A stretch of DNA of 64,000 bases from Streptomyces brasiliensis (GTDB lineage: Bacteria > Actinomycetota > Actinomycetes > Streptomycetales > Streptomycetaceae). The stretch lies in assembly GCF_014647875.1 (NCBI RefSeq), contig NZ_BMQA01000024.1, positions 1-64,000 on the forward strand, read 5' to 3'. The notes under the pieces are model-generated. The model was not told the DNA's origin, searched no databases, and saw only the letters and a list, made by a program, of their open reading frames with translations. This document shows, piece after piece, positions 3,307 to 22,630 of the stretch (positions within the stretch are counted from its first letter, which is position 1; each line of letters starts with the position of its first letter). The position numbers were made by a program, and so were the translations under genes.

Positions 3307-4500
3307 TCACGAAGCGCGGGTCCGAGACCCCAAACGCTGGCTCTGATGCTCGTTCAGGATGTCCAGCATCTTGTCGAACTCTTCGTCACTCATCTTCTGG
3401 ATGAGGTGCATTGCGATGAACGCACCGTCGTCGTAAGGGAGTCGGCGAGCAGACCCCGACTCCGCCTTGCCCGGCTCCTCATCGGCAGACACCCTGTCGG
3501 CCGCCCGGGGATCGGGCACGCTCTCCCCCTGCTCGACTGAAGCGTCCTGCTCGGGGGGATCAACTGCCTCCGCTGCTGCTGGCGTTATGTCGGCAGCAGC
3601 AGCACCGGCACCGGTGGAAGGGCTGCTCGCAGGCTCACGCGTGCTTGTGCGGGTGGGAGGAACGATCTTCGGCGGCTCGGGGGTCGGTACTTCCTCAGCG
3701 ACCTCCCGGTCGTCGACGGCCTGGGAAGGCACGGGGACTTCCCGCGTGGTCTCTTCGTAGGGCGCGACTGGTGCGGGCACCCTCCGCTCCGCATCCTTAC
3801 GCGCGCGTTCGGCCTTGAGCTCTTGGAGGGCGGCTTCCTGCCGGTCCTGCGGTTCCTTGGCAACGGAACGCAGAAGTTCGACAGGCTCCTCCCCCACGAC
3901 TGCCTGAAGTTCTGGGCTCAGATTGAGCAGAGAAAGGCGCTGGGACACCCAACCCTGGGATTTGCGGAGCCGCTTGGCAAGCTTGACCTGTGACCCGTGA
4001 ATGGCGAGCAAGCGTTGCAGAGCCCGTGCCTCGTCGAGGGGATCGAGGTCGTTTCGATGGATGTTCGCGACGAGTGCCGATTCAAGGATGGCGTCCCCGT
4101 CACTGCCCTGCTCATCGTCGACCATGACGTTGAGGTGGGTGAGGCCCGCCTCGCGAGCGGCCGCCAGTCGACTGCTGCCGTCCACGACGACATGAGTGGT
4201 GTCGGGCTCGAGGTCATTCGCACGGGCCGGGTTGGCCTTGATGTAGGCGTCACGGTTCATGACCGTGATGGCCTGCTTCTGGCCGTGTTCCTCGAGGCTG
4301 CCCGCGAGTTCGGTCAGATCGCCGAGGGTGGTGCGGGGGTTCTCGGGGTTGGGGCTGATGCGGCTGACGGGGAGCCGTGTCGGAGGGGCCACTCCTTCGG
4401 TCGGTACACCGGTGGCGGCACCAATGGCGGCTCGGCGGGCGCTGACGGGCCGGGTACCGTCGCCGAAGCGTCCGGATCCCAGTTGGGCGGCCTTGCTCAT
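3307..4500 (-). CDS. parB: ParB-family centromere-binding protein
   Basis: Partition protein expected to bind the parS-like sites upstream of parA and to be moved by ParA. The 397-residue product has a ParB/Srx N-terminal domain (about 40-170), a helix-turn-helix region (VKLAKRLRKSQGWVSQRLSLL), a long Pro/Glu/Ala-rich linker, and a short C-terminal segment (FIAMHLIQKMSDEEFDKML), probably for dimerisation. The usual GERRxRA nucleotide-binding motif reads DGSSRLAAAR here, as in other divergent plasmid ParBs, so CTP handling may differ. The ATG at 4500 overlaps the parA stop as ATGA, showing translational coupling. A longer upstream frame is rejected because it runs through parA. Confidence 0.9.
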   Translation of the reverse strand: MSKAAQLGSGRFGDGTRPVSARRAAIGAATGVPTEGVAPPTRLPVSRISPNPENPRTTLGDLTELAGSLEEHGQKQAITVMNRDAYIKANPARANDLEPDTTHVVVDGSSRLAAAREAGLTHLNVMVDDEQGSDGDAILESALVANIHRNDLDPLDEARALQRLLAIHGSQVKLAKRLRKSQGWVSQRLSLLNLSPELQAVVGEEPVELLRSVAKEPQDRQEAALQELKAERARKDAERRVPAPVAPYEETTREVPVPSQAVDDREVAEEVPTPEPPKIVPPTRTSTREPASSPSTGAGAAAADITPAAAEAVDPPEQDASVEQGESVPDPRAADRVSADEEPGKAESGSARRLPYDDGAFIAMHLIQKMSDEEFDKMLDILNEHQSQRLGSRTRAS

Positions 4501-5762
4501 GAGATCTCCCGGGCCAGTGCGCGCATGGCAACGGCCTGCTGCGAGGCGGGCGCGTAGCTCAGCAGGGGCTGCTTCATGCGGACTGCCTCCTTCTGTTCCT
4601 TGAGGTCGGTGATGAGGCCGACGACTCGCGGATCCTTTATGTCGATCCATCCCTGCAGAGACGACGTGGCGATGTATCCGCGTCGGCCGTCGTAGAGGTT
4701 GACGACGATGCCCAAGTAGTCGATGTCGAGGGCGAGGTCGTTACGGAGATCCTCTATCTGGTTCGTCAGCAGGTCGTAGGCGTCAGCGGAGCTGTCCTCA
4801 GCCTGGACGACGATGAGGGCTCCGGATTGACCCGGCCCTTCACCGTCACGCCGGCGCCCGTAGTAGGCGGCCGCATCCATGCTGAGGCCGAGGCTGGGCG
4901 GGCAGTCCACGATGATTACGTCGTAATCGGCTTCGAGTGGCATCAGTGCCCGCTCCAGGGCCGCCTCGCGAGCGCGCACCGCAGACAGGCGTACGTCGAG
5001 CAGGAAGGCGTCATGACATGCGGGCAGGAGGTGCAGCCGCCCCCCGAAGTGCTCGTCGTCGACGGAGACAAGCAGATCCCGCAGGTCACCCTTGGGCTCG
5101 CCTGCCATGTGGTTGGTGAGGCTGTCACCGTTCATCGCCAGAGGGGCAGCGCCCAGTTGGTTGGTGAGGTGGCATTGCGGATCGAAGTCGACCAGGAGGA
5201 CACGGAGTCCGTGTCCCGGAAGCTTCTCGATGTCGAGCGGGTCGGTATCGGTGTCGCTCGCGTCGGCCTGGGCATCTCCAGCCCGAAGAGCGGCGGCCAG
5301 GGCCTTGGCGACGCGCACGGGGAACAACCGGTTCGGGTCCTCCGAGAGCGCCTCCCCCACGCCCGCGGTGATGGCGGTCTTGCCCACGCCGCCCTTCTGG
5401 TTGCAGACGACGATGCGACGGGTGACGTCCGGGCGCTGGACATCCGGCGCGGGGTTCGTGTCGAGCCAGAGCTGGACGGACTGGGCGAGACCCTGAATGA
5501 GGGATACGCGCCGGTCCTCCGCGATGCTTCGGAACTCCTCCCACTGCCCTGGCGGCAGGAAGGTGGAGAAGGACTCGGCTCCAGCGGTGTCGACCGAAGC
5601 CGTGGCTGAGGCAAGGTCGCACCAGGCGTCAATGCCCTGCTCGACGGCGGTCTGGATCTCGATGCCGAGTTGGGCGGTTCTGACTTTGAGGCTCTGCCGG
5701 AGCCATCCTGGCAGCTTGGAGACGACCTTGGCCCGGTCGCTCGAGGTTGCTGGCATACTCAT
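4497..5762 (-). CDS. parA: ParA-family partition ATPase
   Basis: Walker-type ATPase that positions plasmid copies on the nucleoid. The 421-residue protein has an N-terminal extension of about 110 residues, probably DNA-binding. The deviant Walker A is NQKGGVGKTAIT, the Walker A-prime region is LLVDFDPQCHLTNQLG, and the Walker B region is VIIVDCPPSLG. An insert of about 45 residues rich in Asp and Ala lies between Walker A and A-prime. The first ATG at 5762 has AAGG upstream; a second ATG two codons in is possible. It is followed without a gap by parB. The N-terminal extension and the inverted repeat just upstream suggest it represses its own operon, as type Ia ParA proteins do. Confidence 0.92.
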   Translation of the reverse strand: MSMPATSSDRAKVVSKLPGWLRQSLKVRTAQLGIEIQTAVEQGIDAWCDLASATASVDTAGAESFSTFLPPGQWEEFRSIAEDRRVSLIQGLAQSVQLWLDTNPAPDVQRPDVTRRIVVCNQKGGVGKTAITAGVGEALSEDPNRLFPVRVAKALAAALRAGDAQADASDTDTDPLDIEKLPGHGLRVLLVDFDPQCHLTNQLGAAPLAMNGDSLTNHMAGEPKGDLRDLLVSVDDEHFGGRLHLLPACHDAFLLDVRLSAVRAREAALERALMPLEADYDVIIVDCPPSLGLSMDAAAYYGRRRDGEGPGQSGALIVVQAEDSSADAYDLLTNQIEDLRNDLALDIDYLGIVVNLYDGRRGYIATSSLQGWIDIKDPRVVGLITDLKEQKEAVRMKQPLLSYAPASQQAVAMRALAREIS

Positions 5763-11397: not shown

Positions 11398-11953
11398 CGA
11401 CTCCCGGCTCCCTTCGCACGGGACGGAGCCGTAGAGGCGGTGCCTCGATGTCGGGGAAAAAACCGCCCCGTGCAGCACCGATGACCTGCCCATAGTGGGC
11501 CGCACGGGCCTCGGCAGTGGCGACGTCCAGGTGCCGCTGGCTATCACGTCCATCCTCCCGGATGGCAGTACGCAGTTCCTGCAAAAAGACTGCAGGAACA
11601 GGCTTCAGCCCAAGCACATACCTGAGCCCCATTACGAGCCTGTAGGCGAGAGCCGGGGGAGTGCCTCCAAGAGCTTCAGGAGCCCGCCAGCAGCACCGAC
11701 GACGGCTGTGGGCTCTGGCCGGACAGAGCGATACGTGCACCTCACGGCAAAGGAACGTATCTTCTCCAACCCGACATCAGCCACCTTCCCGACAAAGAGG
11801 CATCCGACGCAAAAAAAACGGCGCCGGAATGGCGGGTCCTGCGCGCGGGGCGAGTGAACGCGAAGCAGGGACTGAACAGATTCCGTTGGGGCCCGCCACC
11901 ACGGTCGCCCCGGCAGCCGTTTTCGAAGAGCCGGTCTTACGGGGGAGGGGCTG
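11398..11953. other. Intergenic stretch, no gene seen
   Basis: About 550 bases between the DUF1963 remnant and the iteron region. No protein-like frame or known element was found. Confidence 0.45.
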
Positions 11954-12483
11954 AGGGACCTTGCCCGGGACTGGGAGGGACTCTGGTTCTTTCGGTCCCT
12001 GACCTTCCGTCCCTGACGTTTGCGCAGGTCAGAGCCGTTCCCTCCCCTCCGCCAGGGACTGTAGGGACTGAAGAACGCAATTATGACGTAGATAAGTGAT
12101 GTGTTCGTACGCGCGCGCATACGAACACCACATCAAAAACAGCTCATAATGGCGAAGTTGAGTCCCTACAGTCCCTCTCTCGAGCGGTTATGAGGCCCTG
12201 ACCTGCACTGATGCTCAGTGACTGACCAGGAACCGGCGATGTGCACAGCCCCTGCCGTTCGGTCCCTGGACCCTTCCGTCCCTTCCCTGGTGCAGCCGCC
12301 CCCTCGAAACGCGACATGCCTTCTGCGCGTCGGTCCCTTCAGCCCCTAGGGTTGGAAGAAACCTCCGAGTCAAGGGACCCAAGGGACCAGGAACCTGATA
12401 GAAACGGCTCGCGGGTTGGACAGACCCTTTTTCGGCGAAGGTGGGCCTTACACTCTTTTCGCATCAGAGTCCCTTCGGTCCCT
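11954..12483. repeat. Iteron array AGGGAC/GTCCCT, candidate replication origin
   Basis: Fifteen copies of one hexamer lie in 530 bases. AGGGAC starts at 11954, 11976, 12054, 12063, 12373 and 12382; GTCCCT starts at 11995, 12009, 12162, 12171, 12262, 12278, 12333, 12469 and 12478. Four pairs are spaced exactly 9 bases apart. Several copies extend to TTCGGTCCCT or TTCCGTCCCT. The array ends 31 bases before the primase-polymerase start. Repeated short sites next to a replication gene, with an AT-richer palindromic core, is the classical layout of an iteron origin. The array may also regulate the downstream operon. Confidence 0.75.
12054..12176. repeat. Nested inverted repeats at the centre of the iteron array
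   Basis: Three inverted repeats share one centre at about 12115. The outer arms are AGGGACTGTAGGGACT (12054-12069) with its complement at 12161-12176. The middle arms are ATTATGA (12080-12086) and TCATAAT (12144-12150). The inner arms are GTGTTCGTA (12101-12109) and TACGAACAC (12120-12128) around a GC-alternating loop. The inner part is AT-richer than its surroundings and could be where strands open. Confidence 0.8.
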
Positions 12484-12514
12484 GACGAAGCGGGCTCCCT
12501 GTCAGGGGTGTGAA

Positions 12515-13651
12515 GTGATCGGGCAGACGACAGAAGTGACGAGGACGATTCCTGTGCCGCGCGAAGGTGAGAACCGAGACAGTGCAGCCAGAAACGCGCC
12601 CACGTCACCGCGAGCCGTCGCGCGGTGGTGTGCTGCGCAGGGTTGGCCTGTCCATCCTCTGTCCCCGGGTCGGAAGACCCCTGTCGGGAACTGTTCCTCC
12701 TGCTCAGGAGCCAGACACGAGCCGACGTCGTGCCCCTGCCTGCCTGCAGGACGCCCTTGCCATGGTTTCCACGCTGCGACGACCGATCCGGGCCTTGTCG
12801 ATCGATGGTGGGCCGACACCCCGTCCGCTGGAGTGGGTGTCGCCTGCGGCCCTGCCGGCCTCGTCGTGATCGACATCGACGCTCACCAGGTGTCTGTCGC
12901 AGACCGGGCACATTTGTTGCCTGGCATTCCCATCCCCGAGCAGGTCGAGCTCGATGGTCTGGCCTCTGGCTTCGACACGTTGGCGCTGCTGGCGGCTTAC
13001 CGGGGCGCGAAGGATCCGGCGCAGGACGAGAGCACGCTGCGTGTACGTACGCCTTCCGGCGGCCTGCATGTCTGGTACCGCAATCCCGAAACGTCCACCC
13101 GCTACCGCTGCTCGACCGGTTCCGGTCGAAACACGGCGCTCGCCTGGCAGGTCGACGTGCGTGCCAACGGCGGCTACATCGTGGCTCCGGGCACACGTAC
13201 GCCACAGGGTGTCTACCGTGCGGTGGGGGCGGCGCGGCATCCGGCCATACTTCCGGAATGGCTTCGGGGTGAACTCCGCCGTACGGGACATGTCATCGAG
13301 AGCCAGACTCCGGCCGCGGTTGCCGTACCCCTCGCAGTAGCCGCTTCCCCAGCGCGCGCCCCGAGGCGCGCGGCTCCCGCCCATCAGGTCATCGACCCGC
13401 TGATCGCCTTGGTCGCGGAGTGTGCCGTCGCCCCGGAGGGGACCGGTTTCACGGAGAAGCTCAACAGGGCTGCCTACACGGCCGGCGGTCTGATCGGAGC
13501 GGGGCATCTCGACCACACCGCCATTCGCGACCGACTTGTCCGTGTCGCTCACTATGCCCGCCCTTGGCAGCAGTCTCGGAACGAAAAGATCGTTGACGAC
13601 GCCCTTGCCGTGGGGTCCGTCCGTCCTCTTCACCTCAAAGGACGCCCATGA
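12515..13651 (+). CDS. Primase-polymerase (Prim-Pol domain)
   Basis: Bifunctional primase/DNA polymerase of the archaeo-eukaryotic primase type used by plasmids and phages. The 378-residue protein has a Cys-rich stretch (CSSCSGARHEPTSCPC, about 58-73), then the catalytic acidic motif VVIDIDAH near residue 116 and GGLHVWYR with the usual motif His. The C-terminal third (about 290-370) is helical. The GTG at 12515 is chosen because AGGGG lies at the right distance; longer frames reach into the iterons. It overlaps the helicase gene by four bases. It probably primes replication from the adjacent origin-like array. Confidence 0.88.
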   Translation: MIGQTTEVTRTIPVPREGENRDSAARNAPTSPRAVARWCAAQGWPVHPLSPGRKTPVGNCSSCSGARHEPTSCPCLPAGRPCHGFHAATTDPGLVDRWWADTPSAGVGVACGPAGLVVIDIDAHQVSVADRAHLLPGIPIPEQVELDGLASGFDTLALLAAYRGAKDPAQDESTLRVRTPSGGLHVWYRNPETSTRYRCSTGSGRNTALAWQVDVRANGGYIVAPGTRTPQGVYRAVGAARHPAILPEWLRGELRRTGHVIESQTPAAVAVPLAVAASPARAPRRAAPAHQVIDPLIALVAECAVAPEGTGFTEKLNRAAYTAGGLIGAGHLDHTAIRDRLVRVAHYARPWQQSRNEKIVDDALAVGSVRPLHLKGRP

Positions 13652-15198
13652 GCAGCAGCGCCGAAGGCTCACCACGTTTCGACCCGCAGGCTGCTGCTCA
13701 GCAGATGCTCGACCTCGAGTCGGCGGAACTGGTCCCCGGTCCCGTCAGGCTGCCCGCACAGGGCTTCATCGGTGCTTCTGCCTCACCTGTCGCCCCGGGA
13801 GCCGGTGCCTCGGCCCTGCTGCCTCCCTCCCTGTCCGACCGGGGGAACGCCCGTCTCTTCGTGGAGCTGCATCACGACCAGTTCCGCCATGTGGAGGGCT
13901 TGGGCTGGTTCGCGTGGGACGGCTATCGGTGGAAGCGTGGGGGAGGGGAGAAGGCCGCTCTGTGGGCCGCGGGGGAGATGGCCGAGGACATGTCGGCCAC
14001 CGATCCGCGTGGTGTCTTCAGCGACCGTGAGCTCGGGCACCACAAGCGGCGCACGTTGTCCACCGCCGGTCTGAAGGCCCTCCTGACGCAGGCGAAGGCG
14101 TCCCCGGACATCTCAGTGGATCCCGACAGGCTCGACGGGGATCCCTACGCCCTGTGCACCCCCGTCGGAGTGGTCGACCTGCACAGCGGGCATCTGCGCA
14201 AAGCCGACCCCACCCGTGACTTCCACTCCCGTGCCACCAGCGTCGCCCCGCAGGAGATGGAGACGCCCCGCTGGCACCGCTTCCTCGCCGACACCTTCGG
14301 TGACGATGACGAGGGCCGGGAGATGATCGACTTCCTGCACCTGCTGCTGGGGTACTCCATCACGGGCGACGTGGGAGCCCAGGTGTTGCCCTTCCTGCAC
14401 GGTGAGGGCAAGAACGGCAAGTCCGTGCTGCTCGACATCATGATCCAGATCCTCGGTGACTATGCGGACGCGGCCCCGCCGGGCTTCCTGATGGACCGGG
14501 GGGCCTTCTCGGAGCACTCCACGGAGCTGACCGAACTGCACGGGCGTCGTCTGGTGGTGTGCAGCGAACTGAAGCCGAACGACAAGTTCGACGAGGCACG
14601 CGTCCGACTTCTGACGGGTGGTGACAAGATCAAGGCCCGCCGCATGCGGCAGGACTACTTCTCGTTCACCCCCACCCACCACTTGTGGCTGTTGGGCAAC
14701 CACCGTCCGGAGGTCTCCACCGGCGGCTTCGCCTTCTGGCGACGCATCCGCCTGCTGCCCTTCACCCGGACGGTCCCGGCCCACCGAAGGATCGACAACC
14801 TCGCCTTCGAACTCGTTCGCGACGAGGGCCCGGGGATCCTCCAGTGGCTGATCGAGGGGGCGCAGCGCTATCTGCGCACCAGAGACCCGCTGGAGGGCCC
14901 TGACAGGGTCCGTATGGCCACGACGGCCTACGCGACCACCGAGGATCACATCGGCCGCTTCCTGGCCGAATGCTGCACGCGGGACGGAGACTCGGGGAAG
15001 GACCTGAGGGTGGAACAGGGATTGCTCTACTCGGAGTACAGCTCCTGGTGCAACGTCGGTGAAGGGATCCGGCCCGCGACTCCCCGAGCCTTTGCGAACC
15101 GCGTCCGACAGGAGGTGGGCGTGGCCTCGCCGACCGACATGATCAAGTCGAATGGCCGAAAATACTACCCAGGTATCGCACTACTGGAGCACGCATGA
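13648..15198 (+). CDS. D5/P4-type primase-helicase (SF3)
   Basis: ATP-driven replicative helicase of the phage/plasmid P4 family. The 516-residue protein has a D5_N domain (about 60-220), a superfamily 3 helicase core with Walker A GEGKNGKS at about 251-258 and a Walker B region RRLVVCSELKP, and a C-terminal domain (about 420-510) with a winged-helix character. It starts in an ATGA overlap with the primase-polymerase, so the two are made together and probably act as one primosome-like unit at the nearby iterons. Confidence 0.88.
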   Translation: MSSSAEGSPRFDPQAAAQQMLDLESAELVPGPVRLPAQGFIGASASPVAPGAGASALLPPSLSDRGNARLFVELHHDQFRHVEGLGWFAWDGYRWKRGGGEKAALWAAGEMAEDMSATDPRGVFSDRELGHHKRRTLSTAGLKALLTQAKASPDISVDPDRLDGDPYALCTPVGVVDLHSGHLRKADPTRDFHSRATSVAPQEMETPRWHRFLADTFGDDDEGREMIDFLHLLLGYSITGDVGAQVLPFLHGEGKNGKSVLLDIMIQILGDYADAAPPGFLMDRGAFSEHSTELTELHGRRLVVCSELKPNDKFDEARVRLLTGGDKIKARRMRQDYFSFTPTHHLWLLGNHRPEVSTGGFAFWRRIRLLPFTRTVPAHRRIDNLAFELVRDEGPGILQWLIEGAQRYLRTRDPLEGPDRVRMATTAYATTEDHIGRFLAECCTRDGDSGKDLRVEQGLLYSEYSSWCNVGEGIRPATPRAFANRVRQEVGVASPTDMIKSNGRKYYPGIALLEHA

Positions 15199-15400
15199 CG
15201 GCTGACATAGGTCAGCTATCCACACTATGGGCCCTACACCGGTGTCGTCGTGCGCTCTACGATGGTGGTCCGGTCCCGCATGCGGCGGCCCCAGCAGAGC
15301 GGCCCGCCACTTGGCGGCGAGCGGGCCGGAGAGAGACGGACAGATGCCCGGACATGCCCCCATGGCCGGGGAGCACGCCGACGAAGGAGGGGCTGCAGCC

Positions 15401-15781
15401 ATGAGTTCGCTGTTGACCGAGAGCGACCTCATCCACGAGGACGAGGTGGTGTGGCTGGAGAACCTCGAAAAGCTGGACTACGTCCGTCAGGCACTGGACA
15501 AGACCAGGCGGCGCAACACCAAGCCACCGTACGCGCGCGACGGGCGCATGGTGGGCTACGCACTGCTGGACGAGGACGCTTCTCCGGATCCTGACAGCGG
15601 CCTGTACAAGCGCCGGGTGTTCTTCCTGCTTCCCCATGACCGTGACAGCTTTCCCGACGGCCTCTACCGCGAGGGGGCTCCGGGTGAGGCCGTCGACCCG
15701 CGCACGATCGCCCCGAAGAAGCCGGGAGCGAAGACGCCCAGGTCACAGAGCGGGACGGTGGCCGTAGCGTCGGCGCCCTGA
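15401..15781 (+). CDS. Small conserved protein of the replication operon (DUF6009-like)
   Basis: A 126-residue protein with an excellent ribosome site (GAAGGAGGGG) before the ATG at 15401. The sequence (IHEDEVVWLENLEKLDYVRQALDKTRRR, RMVGYALL, RRVFFLLPHDRD, GLYREGAPGEAVDPRTI) matches a small actinobacterial family that I recall as DUF6009, often next to Prim-Pol/D5 genes. The C-terminus is basic. A role as an accessory replication or DNA-binding factor is inferred from position only. Confidence 0.65.
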   Translation: MSSLLTESDLIHEDEVVWLENLEKLDYVRQALDKTRRRNTKPPYARDGRMVGYALLDEDASPDPDSGLYKRRVFFLLPHDRDSFPDGLYREGAPGEAVDPRTIAPKKPGAKTPRSQSGTVAVASAP

Positions 15782-19872: not shown

Positions 19873-19939
19873 CCGGGAACGTGCTCGCCGAGCGCGATCC
19901 TCCCGGGTGATCAGCGTTCTGGCACAGACAGGAGCAACG

Positions 19940-20962
19940 ATGCTCGGCGCGTGTTCAAGAAGGCAGACCCTCCAGTTCCTCCTCGCATCAGCGATCGCGA
20001 CAGGCTGCGGCACCGCGGCCGGCGGCAGCCGATCGGCCGCGGGGAGCTCCGGCAGGAAGGTCGTCCGCCTTGCCGTGCAGGAACAGAACTTTGCGACCAT
20101 CCCCCTCACGCTGAGCCAGGACCTCGGCTTCATGCGACAGGAGGGGATAGAGGTCACGGTCACGATCGGGCAGAGCACCAGCACCATGACGGCAGGCCTG
20201 ATGGGAGGTTCCTTCGATTTGCAGATAGGCGGTTCGGAACTGGTGGTGGCCCGCCAGCAGGGTGCGCCCCTCATCGCGATCGACGGGATGTGCAACAGCC
20301 CGATCTGGAGCGTGGTGGCCAAGCCCGGGATCACCGGTCTCGACCAGCTGCGCGGCCGGACGATCGCCACCTCCGGGCCCAGCACGGTGTCGACCGTGGC
20401 ACTGGTCGCCACTTTGAAGCGTCAGGGGATTCCCCCCGGTTCCTACCGGCAGTTCACGGCAGGCGGTACGGCGGAACGTTTCACCGCGGTGCGCAACGGC
20501 CAGGCCGACGCCACAGTGGTCACCTCGCCCCTGGAATTCCAGGCGGTCGACCAGGGCCTGCGCAACCTCGGCTCCCTCTATGACGCCATGCCGAACTTCG
20601 CCTCCGGCTTCGTCGTCACGACGAAAACCTTCGCCGCCCACCATGACGCAGAACTGGTCGGCTTCTCCCGGGGATGGCTGCGCACCCTGCGCTGGATGCA
20701 CGACCCGGCCAACGAGCACGATCTCGTCCAGCGGGTTTCCAAGATCCTCAAGACGCCGCAGCCCGTGATCGAGCAGGCCTACGGCTACTGGCTCACCGGG
20801 AAGCGCGCCGAAGCGCTCTTCCCGGCGGACGGAAAGATCGACCTTCCCGCGCTGAACGGCGCGATCAAGGCTTTCGTCGACCACGGGGCGATGAAGAAGG
20901 TCACCAGCGTCGACGGGTTCGTCGTCAATACCTACCTGGACCGAGCCACGGAGTCGCTGTGA
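19940..20962 (+). CDS. ABC substrate-binding lipoprotein, nitrate/sulfonate/taurine type
   Basis: Periplasmic-type binding protein, tethered to the membrane by lipid. The 340-residue precursor begins MLGACSRRQTLQFLLASAIATGC: a twin-arginine motif (SRR) and a lipobox ending at Cys 23, suggesting Tat export. The mature part has the NMT1/SsuA-like pattern (QEQNFATIPLTLSQDLGFMRQEGIEV, GSFDLQIGGSE, RGRTIATSGPSTVS). The ATG at 19940 follows AGGAG; a GTG 33 bases upstream is less likely. It overlaps the permease gene and carries the 19-bp regulon element upstream. The ligand is probably the aromatic or other organic acid used by the downstream pathway. Confidence 0.85.
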   Translation: MLGACSRRQTLQFLLASAIATGCGTAAGGSRSAAGSSGRKVVRLAVQEQNFATIPLTLSQDLGFMRQEGIEVTVTIGQSTSTMTAGLMGGSFDLQIGGSELVVARQQGAPLIAIDGMCNSPIWSVVAKPGITGLDQLRGRTIATSGPSTVSTVALVATLKRQGIPPGSYRQFTAGGTAERFTAVRNGQADATVVTSPLEFQAVDQGLRNLGSLYDAMPNFASGFVVTTKTFAAHHDAELVGFSRGWLRTLRWMHDPANEHDLVQRVSKILKTPQPVIEQAYGYWLTGKRAEALFPADGKIDLPALNGAIKAFVDHGAMKKVTSVDGFVVNTYLDRATESL

Positions 20963-21804
20963 CCACCAGCCGCCCTGCCGCCCCAGCACCGGTCCCCGCG
21001 GCATCCCGCAGGACCCGCCCGCTGCGCCCGTTCGGCCGCCGACGCGGCAACCGCGTCAGCTTCTGGGTGGGCTGCGCCTCCATCCTCGGCGGACTCCTTC
21101 TGTGGCAAGGCGCCACCGTGGTGTTCCATGTGAACCCGCTGGTGCTCGCCTCACCCACCCAGATCGCCCACGCCTTCGCCGAGATGAGCTCCGGCGGCGA
21201 ACTGACCGGGCATCTGACGACCAGCCTGCGTCAGTTCGCGGTCGGGTTCGTCATCGCCGGAGCCCTCGGCGTCCTGACCGGCCTGTTGATGGGGCAGTTC
21301 CGCTACGTCCGCTATGCCACCGAACCCTGGGTACTGGCCCTGTACGCCACTCCCAGCATCGGCCTGGCCCCCCTGTTCATCATCTGGCTCGGATTCGGAT
21401 TCGCGGCCAAGGCCTTCATCGTCGTCCTGATGGCCTTCTTCCCGGTCGCCATCAACACCCTTTCCGGAGTCGAGAGCCTTGCCCGGGAATGGAAGGACGT
21501 CGCCGCCTCGTACAAGGCCAACGCACTCGAGCGTTTCGTGAAGGTCGCCCTGCCCGGCTCCCTGCCCTACATCTTCACGGGCCTTCGCCTCGCTGTCGGC
21601 CGCGGTCTGGTCGGCATCGTGGTCGCCGACTTCTTCGGCGCCCAGAAGGGCCTGGGTTTCCTCATCCTCCAGGGCGCGCAGCAGTTCCGTACCGCCGATG
21701 TCTTCGTCGGCACCATCCTGCTCGCGGCCCTCGGCGTCGTCCTGACCACCTTCCTGCGCACTGTGGAACGCAAGGTCTGCCCCTGGAGGACAGATGCGAG
21801 CTGA
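20959..21804 (+). CDS. ABC transporter permease (SsuC/TauC type)
   Basis: Inner-membrane subunit, 281 residues with six predicted membrane segments, the first near residue 35. The EAA loop that contacts the ATPase is visible as EWKDVAASYKANALERFVKVALPGSLPYIFTGLR at about 175-205. It starts at a GTG overlapping the stop of the binding-protein gene (GTGA) and ends inside the start of the ATPase gene, so the three are one operon. Confidence 0.9.
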   Translation: MTTSRPAAPAPVPAASRRTRPLRPFGRRRGNRVSFWVGCASILGGLLLWQGATVVFHVNPLVLASPTQIAHAFAEMSSGGELTGHLTTSLRQFAVGFVIAGALGVLTGLLMGQFRYVRYATEPWVLALYATPSIGLAPLFIIWLGFGFAAKAFIVVLMAFFPVAINTLSGVESLAREWKDVAASYKANALERFVKVALPGSLPYIFTGLRLAVGRGLVGIVVADFFGAQKGLGFLILQGAQQFRTADVFVGTILLAALGVVLTTFLRTVERKVCPWRTDAS

Positions 21805-22630
21805 TATGGCCGCCGAGGCCACGCACACCGACACCCGTACCGCCGTCGCGGGAGGAGCGCGCCTGCTCCTGTCCGGTGTGGGCATGGAGTTCCCGCAACC
21901 CCACACCGGACAGACGCTGACAGCTCTCGAAGGCATCGACCTGGAGGTCACGCCAGGGGAGTTCATCGCCATAGTCGGCCCGTCGGGGTGCGGGAAGACC
22001 ACCCTGCTCCGGCTCATCGCCGGGATGACGGCGCCCACTGCGGGCACGATCGCGGTCGGCGACAGCACCGCGGCCAGTGCCCGCACCGGCTTCGTCTTCC
22101 AGCAGGCCAGCCTCTACCCCTGGCGGACCGTGCTGCGCAACGTCGCCTTCGGGATGGAGTTGCGCACCCGCACGCCCAACCGGCACGAGCGCTCCCGGCG
22201 CGCGGTGCGCCGCCAGGCACAGGACCTGATCCGGCTCGTCGGGCTGGAGGGATTCGAGGACTACTACCCGCATCAGATCTCCGGAGGAATGCAGCAGCGC
22301 GCCAATCTCGCCCGCGCCTTGGCCATCGCCCCCGAACTCCTCCTCATGGACGAACCGTTCAGCGCACTCGATGCCCAGACCAGGGAAGAACTGCAGATCG
22401 AGCTCCAGCGCATCGCCGTACAGACGAACACCACCACGGTCTTCGTCACCCACGACATAGGAGAAGCGGTCTACCTCGCAGACCGGGTCGTGATCCTCAC
22501 CGGACGGCCCGGTCAGGTCCGCAAGGTGCTCTCCTGCCCCACTCCGCGGCCCCGCCCGCTGGCCTACCAGGTGTCGGACGAGTTCATGGCGCTGCGCAAT
22601 GCCGCCTGGGAGCTGGTTCATTCGAATTAA
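21794..22630 (+). CDS. ABC transporter ATPase (SsuB/TauB type)
   Basis: Energy subunit of the same importer, 278 residues. Walker A GPSGCGKTT is at about 61-69, the Q-loop region FVFQQASLYPWRTV near 100, the signature ISGGMQQR near 160, Walker B ELLLMDEP near 180 and the switch His in VFVTHDIGEAV. The ATG at 21794 follows GGAGG. The order of binding protein, permease and ATPase matches sulfonate, taurine and aromatic-acid importers. Confidence 0.92.
   Translation: MRADMAAEATHTDTRTAVAGGARLLLSGVGMEFPQPHTGQTLTALEGIDLEVTPGEFIAIVGPSGCGKTTLLRLIAGMTAPTAGTIAVGDSTAASARTGFVFQQASLYPWRTVLRNVAFGMELRTRTPNRHERSRRAVRRQAQDLIRLVGLEGFEDYYPHQISGGMQQRANLARALAIAPELLLMDEPFSALDAQTREELQIELQRIAVQTNTTTVFVTHDIGEAVYLADRVVILTGRPGQVRKVLSCPTPRPRPLAYQVSDEFMALRNAAWELVHSN

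Follow-up and report, generated by a model that had tools for sequence, protein, structure and literature searches.

The window analysed here, bases 1-64000 of a 121,359-bp contig in the draft genome of Streptomyces brasiliensis (10.7 Mb, 278 contigs), contains a dense field of AGGGAC repeats directly ahead of genes for a Prim-Pol primase/polymerase and a D5-family helicase. What does this repeat field do, and which protein reads it? A preliminary description of the DNA took it for the origin used by a Prim-Pol/D5 replicon, a reading that is supported by conservation of the hexamer near homologous Prim-Pol genes. We consider the segment to be the origin from which a large Streptomyces plasmid of the Prim-Pol/D5/DUF6009 type replicates, working by the mechanism proposed below, with a probability of roughly 0.8.

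Iteron field and putative origin core

The whole iteron field (11867..12483, unstranded) holds 16 AGGGAC hexamers in both orientations. A recount confirmed that 15 copies of AGGGAC/GTCCCT fall within 530 bp (starts at 11954, 11976, 11995, 12009, 12054, 12063, 12162, 12171, 12262, 12278, 12333, 12373, 12382, 12469 and 12478), and the 16th, at 11867, lies just beyond the interval 11954-12483. Only about 0.6 copies are expected by chance: in 5000 first-order Markov versions of the 530 bp, the hexamer occurred 0.59 times on average and at most 5 times. The commonest hexamer of any kind had a mean of 4.0 in these random sequences and once reached 18, so 15 copies of some word are rare, not impossible. 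In the other 530-bp stretches of the window (50-bp steps, none overlapping the field), no hexamer occurred more than 9 times. Across the whole window AGGGAC is found 43 times with 42.8 expected, and the excess is therefore local.

All four hexamer pairs previously reported as 9 bases apart were located (12054/12063, 12162/12171, 12373/12382 and 12469/12478). The first two make up the putative origin core (12054..12176, unstranded), which consists of inverted AGGGAC doublets with 9-bp spacing around a 93-bp loop, a layout that recurs in many relatives. The G+C content of the loop is 44%, compared with 68% in the window. The outer arms (12054-12069 and 12161-12176) complement each other exactly over 16 bp around a centre at 12115, and the same centre is shared by ATTATGA (12080-12086) and TCATAAT (12144-12150). 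Three nested repeats had been placed on this centre; the outer and middle ones do lie there, but the inner palindrome, GTGTTCGTA (12101-12109) with TACGAACAC (12120-12128), is half a base off, at 12114.5. The mirror symmetry had also been called perfect, which is too strong because the 33-nt arms of the core are only 85% complementary. In an alignment of 51 AGGGAC elements, the left AT box (12080..12086, + strand) reads AATTATGA or GTTATGA in many relatives, and the same alignment covers the right AT box (12144..12150, + strand). Between them, the loop contains an 18-nt tract of alternating purines and pyrimidines, CGTACGCGCGCGCATACG (12105..12122, unstranded), which is a candidate melting or Z-prone tract.

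The remaining two doublets form a second inverted-doublet module (12373..12483, unstranded) directly before the Prim-Pol gene, which the preliminary description overlooked. Its mirrored double-doublet (12373-12387 and 12469-12483) is 93% complementary. A search for a consensus promoter in 12373-12483 found none; the module is probably the operator/promoter of the Prim-Pol operon and/or an auxiliary origin element.

Genes beside the iterons

The Prim-Pol gene (PF09250, E 1.4e-38) occupies 12506..13651 on the + strand, its exact start not being fixed, and its product has the conserved Cys/His residues. It is overlapped by the gene of a D5-family (P4-family primase C-terminal) SF3 helicase, the candidate initiator (13648..15198, + strand; D5_N 1.6e-32). 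This protein passes the curated cut-off of the primase_Cterm/D5_N profile, which places it in the P4/D5 family, and it scores 256 bits against TIGR01613 (cut-off 108.7). The third gene of the module encodes a DUF6009 protein (15227..15781, + strand; E 1.4e-62). Of 15 annotated plasmid stretches (L084-L086, L101-L112), 14 show a DUF6009 gene next after D5, and the 15th, L102, has a similar-sized gene in this place that is labelled transcription factor. The DUF6009 protein is possibly part of replication or its control.

A profile search of the three iteron-adjacent genes gave matches to Prim-Pol, D5_N/DUF5906/Pox_D5 and DUF6009, and none to a Rep_3/RepA initiator. The earlier claim that the replicon has no classical Rep holds for a Rep_3/RepA-type protein in these three genes, but it passes over the D5 helicase, which is itself the likely initiator. 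Partition genes are also present, namely parB (3307-4650, - strand) and parA (4497-5762, - strand). Besides, a polypeptide deformylase gene (PF01327), unusual on a plasmid-like contig, lies near the contig start (246-1076, - strand), and three genes at 19907-22630 (+ strand) resemble an ABC uptake system with binding protein, permease and ATPase, as judged from their translations.

Iteron classes in relatives

Among 72,556 plasmid records, 403 contain helicase relatives (330 of them from Streptomyces) and 371 contain Prim-Pol relatives, and a scan of genome contigs yielded 51 loci. For close Prim-Pols, AGGGAC is the top upstream hexamer in nearly every locus. More distant relatives have AGCGAC upstream, and a few have ACGGGA(C) or AGGGGC/AGGGTC. 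Generally, AGGGAC or a one-base variant lies near most close homologues, and the hexamer thus shows the conservation on which the origin reading had been staked.

Defining a module by a Prim-Pol of at least 150 bits, we obtained 92 modules, with the split Prim-Pol of L039 counted twice. By upstream count, 43 belong to the AGGGAC class, 31 to AGCGAC, 2 to ACGGGA(C) and 2 to AGGGGC/TC, and 14 are unclear. Partial or displaced sites are present in 10 of these 14: L037, L086, L102, L069 and L071 carry an AGCGAC core on the downstream side of the operon, L047 and L074 have AGCGAC inverted doublets, and the others have 17 AGGGGC downstream (L104), 6 AGGGAC (L019) or 5 AGCGAC beside a broken gene (L050). 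No recognised iteron field was found at the remaining four, L045, L075, L076 and L077, which are more distant Prim-Pol genes and may use another origin type.

The layout is conserved together with the word. Of the 51 distinct AGGGAC inverted-doublet elements, 42 have a loop of 93-99 bp, and of the 67 AGCGAC elements, 47 have one of 61-65 bp; the two sets are unfiltered and include a few second modules. Most of the elements also contain AT boxes and an extended run of alternating purines and pyrimidines; the longest run has a median of 20 (range 6-31) in the AGGGAC set and of 17 (range 4-36) in the AGCGAC set, while the shuffled medians are 7 and 6, respectively. Two AGCGAC cores that are alike in the letters shown stand 424 bp apart upstream of one Prim-Pol gene in L178 (G184), and this pair is a natural duplication of the core. 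Extra AGCGAC inverted doublets were also seen in L177 (near 6383) and L181 (near 5523), 2-5 kb from the closest Prim-Pol/D5 gene detected in the respective stretch.

Association with Prim-Pol across genomes

We looked for the signature, i.e., inverted doublets in the AGGGAC or AGCGAC form, in 101 genus genomes and ran a reversed control alongside. It turned out that 13 genomes carry the AGGGAC signature and 13 the AGCGAC signature, and none matches the control. Of the 21 genomes that contain a close Prim-Pol (E <= 5.7e-83), 20 have either form, and none of the remaining 80 does, a near-exclusive association whose single exception, G023, has a Prim-Pol without the exact signature. According to the coordinates, the match adjoins the Prim-Pol operon in 13 of 13 AGGGAC genomes and 12 of 13 AGCGAC genomes; in the remaining one, G059, the contigs are broken, and core and detected Prim-Pol are on separate contigs. 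In the family sample the signature was found in 26 of 150 genomes (control 0), and the 17 stretches taken from 13 of these 26 each have a Prim-Pol gene, a D5 gene or both. In the phylum sample it was found in 1 of 149, which is the own genome only.

Signature in viral contigs

The AGGGAC signature also occurs in 49 IMG/VR viral stretches, which form 22 clusters by shared 11-mers and range from 31 to 71% in G+C. A D5 gene stands beside the AGGGAC core in 27 of the 49. In 30 of 53 viral stretches a D5 gene lies 5-283 bp from the core, and the core is 3' of D5 in all 30. Two of the viral D5 genes beside an AGGGAC core, in L215 and L233, come without a Prim-Pol match. For the 23 stretches without a D5 match, the proteins of 11 were tested. 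VapE-like helicases were found in L200, L205 and L211 (AGGGAC) and in L250 (AGCGAC), three of the four being fused to a Prim-Pol domain (two of three among the AGGGAC ones); L235 encodes a Prim-Pol/PriCT_2/AAA_25 protein and L201 a Prim-Pol only, and the tested proteins of L219, L225, L239, L244 and L245 matched nothing relevant. Some viral AGGGAC cores hence adjoin VapE-like or AAA_25 helicases instead of D5, and therefore something other than a D5 winged helix may sometimes be the reader. In L200, L205, L211 and L250 the mirrored iteron core stands no more than about 50-70 bp from the 3' end of the VapE-like gene.

This viral search began from the single word AGGGAC, and its control words are imperfect. 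CAGGGA was found in 12 viral stretches, 4 of them already in the AGGGAC set; of the 8 others, 7 carry a D5 gene and repeats that resemble AGGGA-type iterons. GGACGA was found in 3, two of which resemble AGGGAC units in another frame, one with D5, and GAGCAG in 1 stretch without D5. AGCGAC with a long, AGGGAC-type loop was found in no viral stretch, and a look at named phages gave nothing useful. The viral AGGGAC cores were unexpected and suggest that the code is old.

Reader of the iterons

The last 91 residues of the helicase (14923..15195, + strand) are predicted to fold as an RFX-type winged helix (mean pLDDT 86.7), making this a candidate iteron-binding domain. A Pox_D5 match for this part scores 21.2 bits, slightly below the cut-off of 21.4. 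Its structure matches are RFX5 (Z 9.7, rmsd 2.3 over 76) and RFX1 (Z 9.2, rmsd 1.9 over 71), and among the matches listed, those other than RFX and ASFV PrimPol have Z <=5.5. The whole helicase matches ASFV PrimPol (Z 17.5), the SaPI5 primase-helicase (7ola, 16.8) and poxvirus D5 (about 15), with a model that is weak in the ATPase part (mean pLDDT 70.7; residues 276-364 below 50); P4 alpha's own domain is absent among the fold matches listed, which excludes nothing. On these models, the D5 helicase is likely to be the initiator and to act via its C-terminal RFX-like winged helix.

Iteron class is matched to helicase class. Bit scores, which measure similarity to the window protein, are 716-1199 for the D5 helicases of AGGGAC modules and at most 694 for those of AGCGAC modules (full or nearly full genes), and fresh loci gave 784-955 and 648-671 bits, respectively. 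The two AGGGGC/TC modules (684-689 bits) fall inside the AGCGAC range and break the simple score rule. We also tallied residues in 114 rows, of which 21 ambiguous ones were set aside and 93 classed. At residue 500, all 51 AGGGAC/AGGGGC/ACGGGAC rows have K/R, and 40 of the 42 AGCGAC rows have L/T/V, the exceptions being L156 (two helicases in one stretch) and L050 (a broken gene). RFX contacts its DNA site with the wing, and residue 500 falls in the predicted wing of the window helicase. The class-specific D5 sites are scattered along the protein, beyond the winged helix too, and the class-linked residues stem from very few evolutionary switches.

An alternative is that the iterons are read by Prim-Pol instead of the D5 helicase, perhaps as priming sites. 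Prim-Pol clades follow iteron class too, as the Prim-Pol tree also unites all 43 AGGGAC-type rows (98/89); therefore trees alone do not tell which protein is the reader, and identifying it in this way was dropped. Prim-Pol domains also accompany the AGGGAC core in the VapE-like/AAA_25 viral contigs L205, L211 and L235. However, D5 scores separate AGGGAC from AGCGAC modules, while Prim-Pol scores overlap in both sets of loci, and class-matched iterons persist where Prim-Pol is gone. In L111 (plasmid SGLP1) about 38 Prim-Pol codons are left, and the helicase and both AGGGAC modules are retained; in L179 and L156 an AGCGAC core adjoins a D5 helicase that lacks a Prim-Pol of its own, and the viral D5 proteins of L215 and L233, beside AGGGAC cores, have no Prim-Pol match. 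We regard Prim-Pol as an unlikely reader. Two other D5 copies speak against the helicase as reader: L196 is D5-only without iterons, and L176 has AGGGAC sites without inverted doublets.

Proposed mechanism and alternatives

In the mechanism that we propose for the D5-read origin, D5 subunits would bind the AGGGAC iterons through the C-terminal RFX-like winged helix, and the inward-pointing head-to-tail doublets of the core (12054-12176) would seat one helicase assembly on each side. The AT boxes and the alternating CG/TG loop would melt between the two assemblies, two helicase rings would be loaded, and Prim-Pol would make the first primers. At the second module (12373-12483), the same protein may repress its own operon and help to set copy number. 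Matching of iteron class (AGGGAC, AGCGAC, CGGGAC or AGGGGC/TC) to helicase class would keep co-resident replicons apart. Binding, melting and two rings are most likely by analogy with SaPI Rep and Cch2; autoregulation and incompatibility are inferred too. The geometry of the doublets makes loading from two sides, and thus in both directions, plausible.

The mirrored core might instead act as an extruded stem-loop, as proposed for the archaeal plasmid pRN1, with the iterons only forming the stem. According to the excerpted text of PMC4234260, pRN1 requires a stem-loop of about 100 bp. The window core folds at -33.1 kcal/mol against a shuffled mean of -12.6 (z -8.0), and doublet spacers are complementary in 27 of 51 AGGGAC elements with 14.1 expected from shuffled pairing, an excess to which sequence relatedness can contribute. 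The same caution applies to the inner 20-bp arms, whose complementarity is 0.57 for AGGGAC (maximum 0.56 in 500 shuffled pairings) and 0.50 for AGCGAC (maximum 0.46). Yet these arms are only half complementary, and the AGCGAC spacers (28 of 67) lie in the range that shuffled pairing gives (mean 23.6, with 152 of 2000 at least that high). Outlying unpaired iterons hold recurrent spacings, and the iteron word goes together with the helicase class. These points make a stem-loop role improbable.

Slightly less probable still is that the true origin is elsewhere and the repeats serve solely as an operator by which the Prim-Pol operon is autoregulated. The field does lie directly upstream of the operon, and the second module abuts the Prim-Pol gene. 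But cores are separable from the operon promoter: five loci (L037, L086, L102, G004/L071 and G028/L069) carry a complete AGCGAC core past the operon, and since the core is downstream in this clade, it is not just an operator. The clade keeps one doublet at the Prim-Pol start, a point in favour of the operator reading. In addition, the viral core is 3' of D5 in 30 of 30 cases, the place where the excerpts of PMC6092414 put the origin of phage-inducible islands. That the repeats are sites of ParB or another unrelated regulator is hardly credible: parAB is about 6-9 kb away in the window, but wherever the signature occurs in the genus sample it adjoins a Prim-Pol operon, except in G059 with its broken contigs, and phages with D5 carry it too.

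Comparison with known systems

The earlier remark that such an origin had not been described was too strong, as kindred layouts appear in the excerpted texts of PMC6092414, PMC3583192 and PMC5331497. In phage-inducible islands, two iteron sets flank an AT-rich stretch beside pri-rep (PMC6092414, in excerpt), and the C-terminal domain of SaPI Rep and of Cch2 binds the iterons, with two hexamers suggested (PMC7581432, in excerpt). As far as these excerpts describe it, the pri-rep-ori of PICI/SaPI is alike in having an AEP primase, a self-loading initiator helicase and two short-iteron sets flanking a possible melting region. By sequence family, a primase homologue and a putative initiator helicase adjoin the origin here too. 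The PICI origin is immediately 3' of the initiator gene, whereas here it is 5' of the operon, and the 3' position is found only in five relatives and the 30 viral stretches with D5. The present loci further differ in encoding Prim-Pol and helicase separately, in lying on large plasmids with the core usually upstream, and in having a second mirrored module, one-base iteron classes, a DUF6009 gene and a loop of alternating CG/TG. We claim no PICI membership for the window element, which has parAB and lies on a 121-kb contig.

The Streptomyces plasmid pWTY27 is also a primase/polymerase replicon with mirrored iterons. In its published description (PMC3583192, in excerpt), the primase/polymerase gene repB is cotranscribed with repA, non-coding iterons lie in a long inverted repeat of about 105 bp, and protection by RepA covers two stretches but not the loop. 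It differs in its iteron, GTGGGAAC, and its RepA is called hypothetical there. For central origins of the SCP1/pSLA2-L type, cited for Kitasatospora KVP1, the excerpt of PMC5331497 describes a replication-protein gene with a primase/helicase-like gene, as here, and that of PMC13152386 says that other large Streptomyces replicons encode an SCP1-like replicon. SCP1 and pSLA2-L are probably relatives.

The window helicase, with its TIGR01613 match, shares with the P4 alpha, D5 and pRN1 replication proteins the SF3 type of the P4/D5 family and a C-terminal winged helix, here a predicted fold; the difference is that Prim-Pol is a separate polypeptide here. The P4 ori/crr iterons are a different word. 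A classical iteron plasmid has Rep_3/RepA beside its iterons, unlike the module described here. A literature search of the open PMC subset, made with terms other than the word AGGGAC, showed no paper with this iteron. The signature makes it possible to find probable origins in a widespread type of large-plasmid replicon, helicase relatives being present in 403 of 72,556 plasmid records, and origin recognition by D5-family helicases becomes directly testable.

Coexisting modules

Two modules were found in 6 genomes of the genus sample and 5 of the family sample, and all 11 pair AGGGAC with AGCGAC, although the second Prim-Pol of G171 is only a fragment. Three modules, each of a different class, are present on plasmid SGLP1. 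Co-resident modules of different class would fit iteron incompatibility, and the signature suggests which such plasmids can coexist. There are two partial-copy exceptions: G238 has an additional AGCGAC core accompanied by D5 but not by Prim-Pol, and the L084 plasmid encodes an additional D5 of AGGGAC type that lacks inverted doublets. A D5 relative was looked for in pSCATT and none was found.

More broadly, inverted doublets of a 9-bp iteron, AGGGA[C], around a melting loop of about 60-110 bp might be an old origin code shared by Prim-Pol-associated AAA+/SF3 helicases of phages and actinobacterial plasmids. One-base changes of the word, matched by winged-helix changes (e.g., charged K/R versus L/T/V at 500), would then create mutually compatible replicon groups, so that a large Streptomyces plasmid could carry two or three origins, each of another class. 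We see the chances of this wider proposal as evenly balanced. In L026, L027, L088 and L090, two modules of unlike iteron class stand a few kb apart on one contig.
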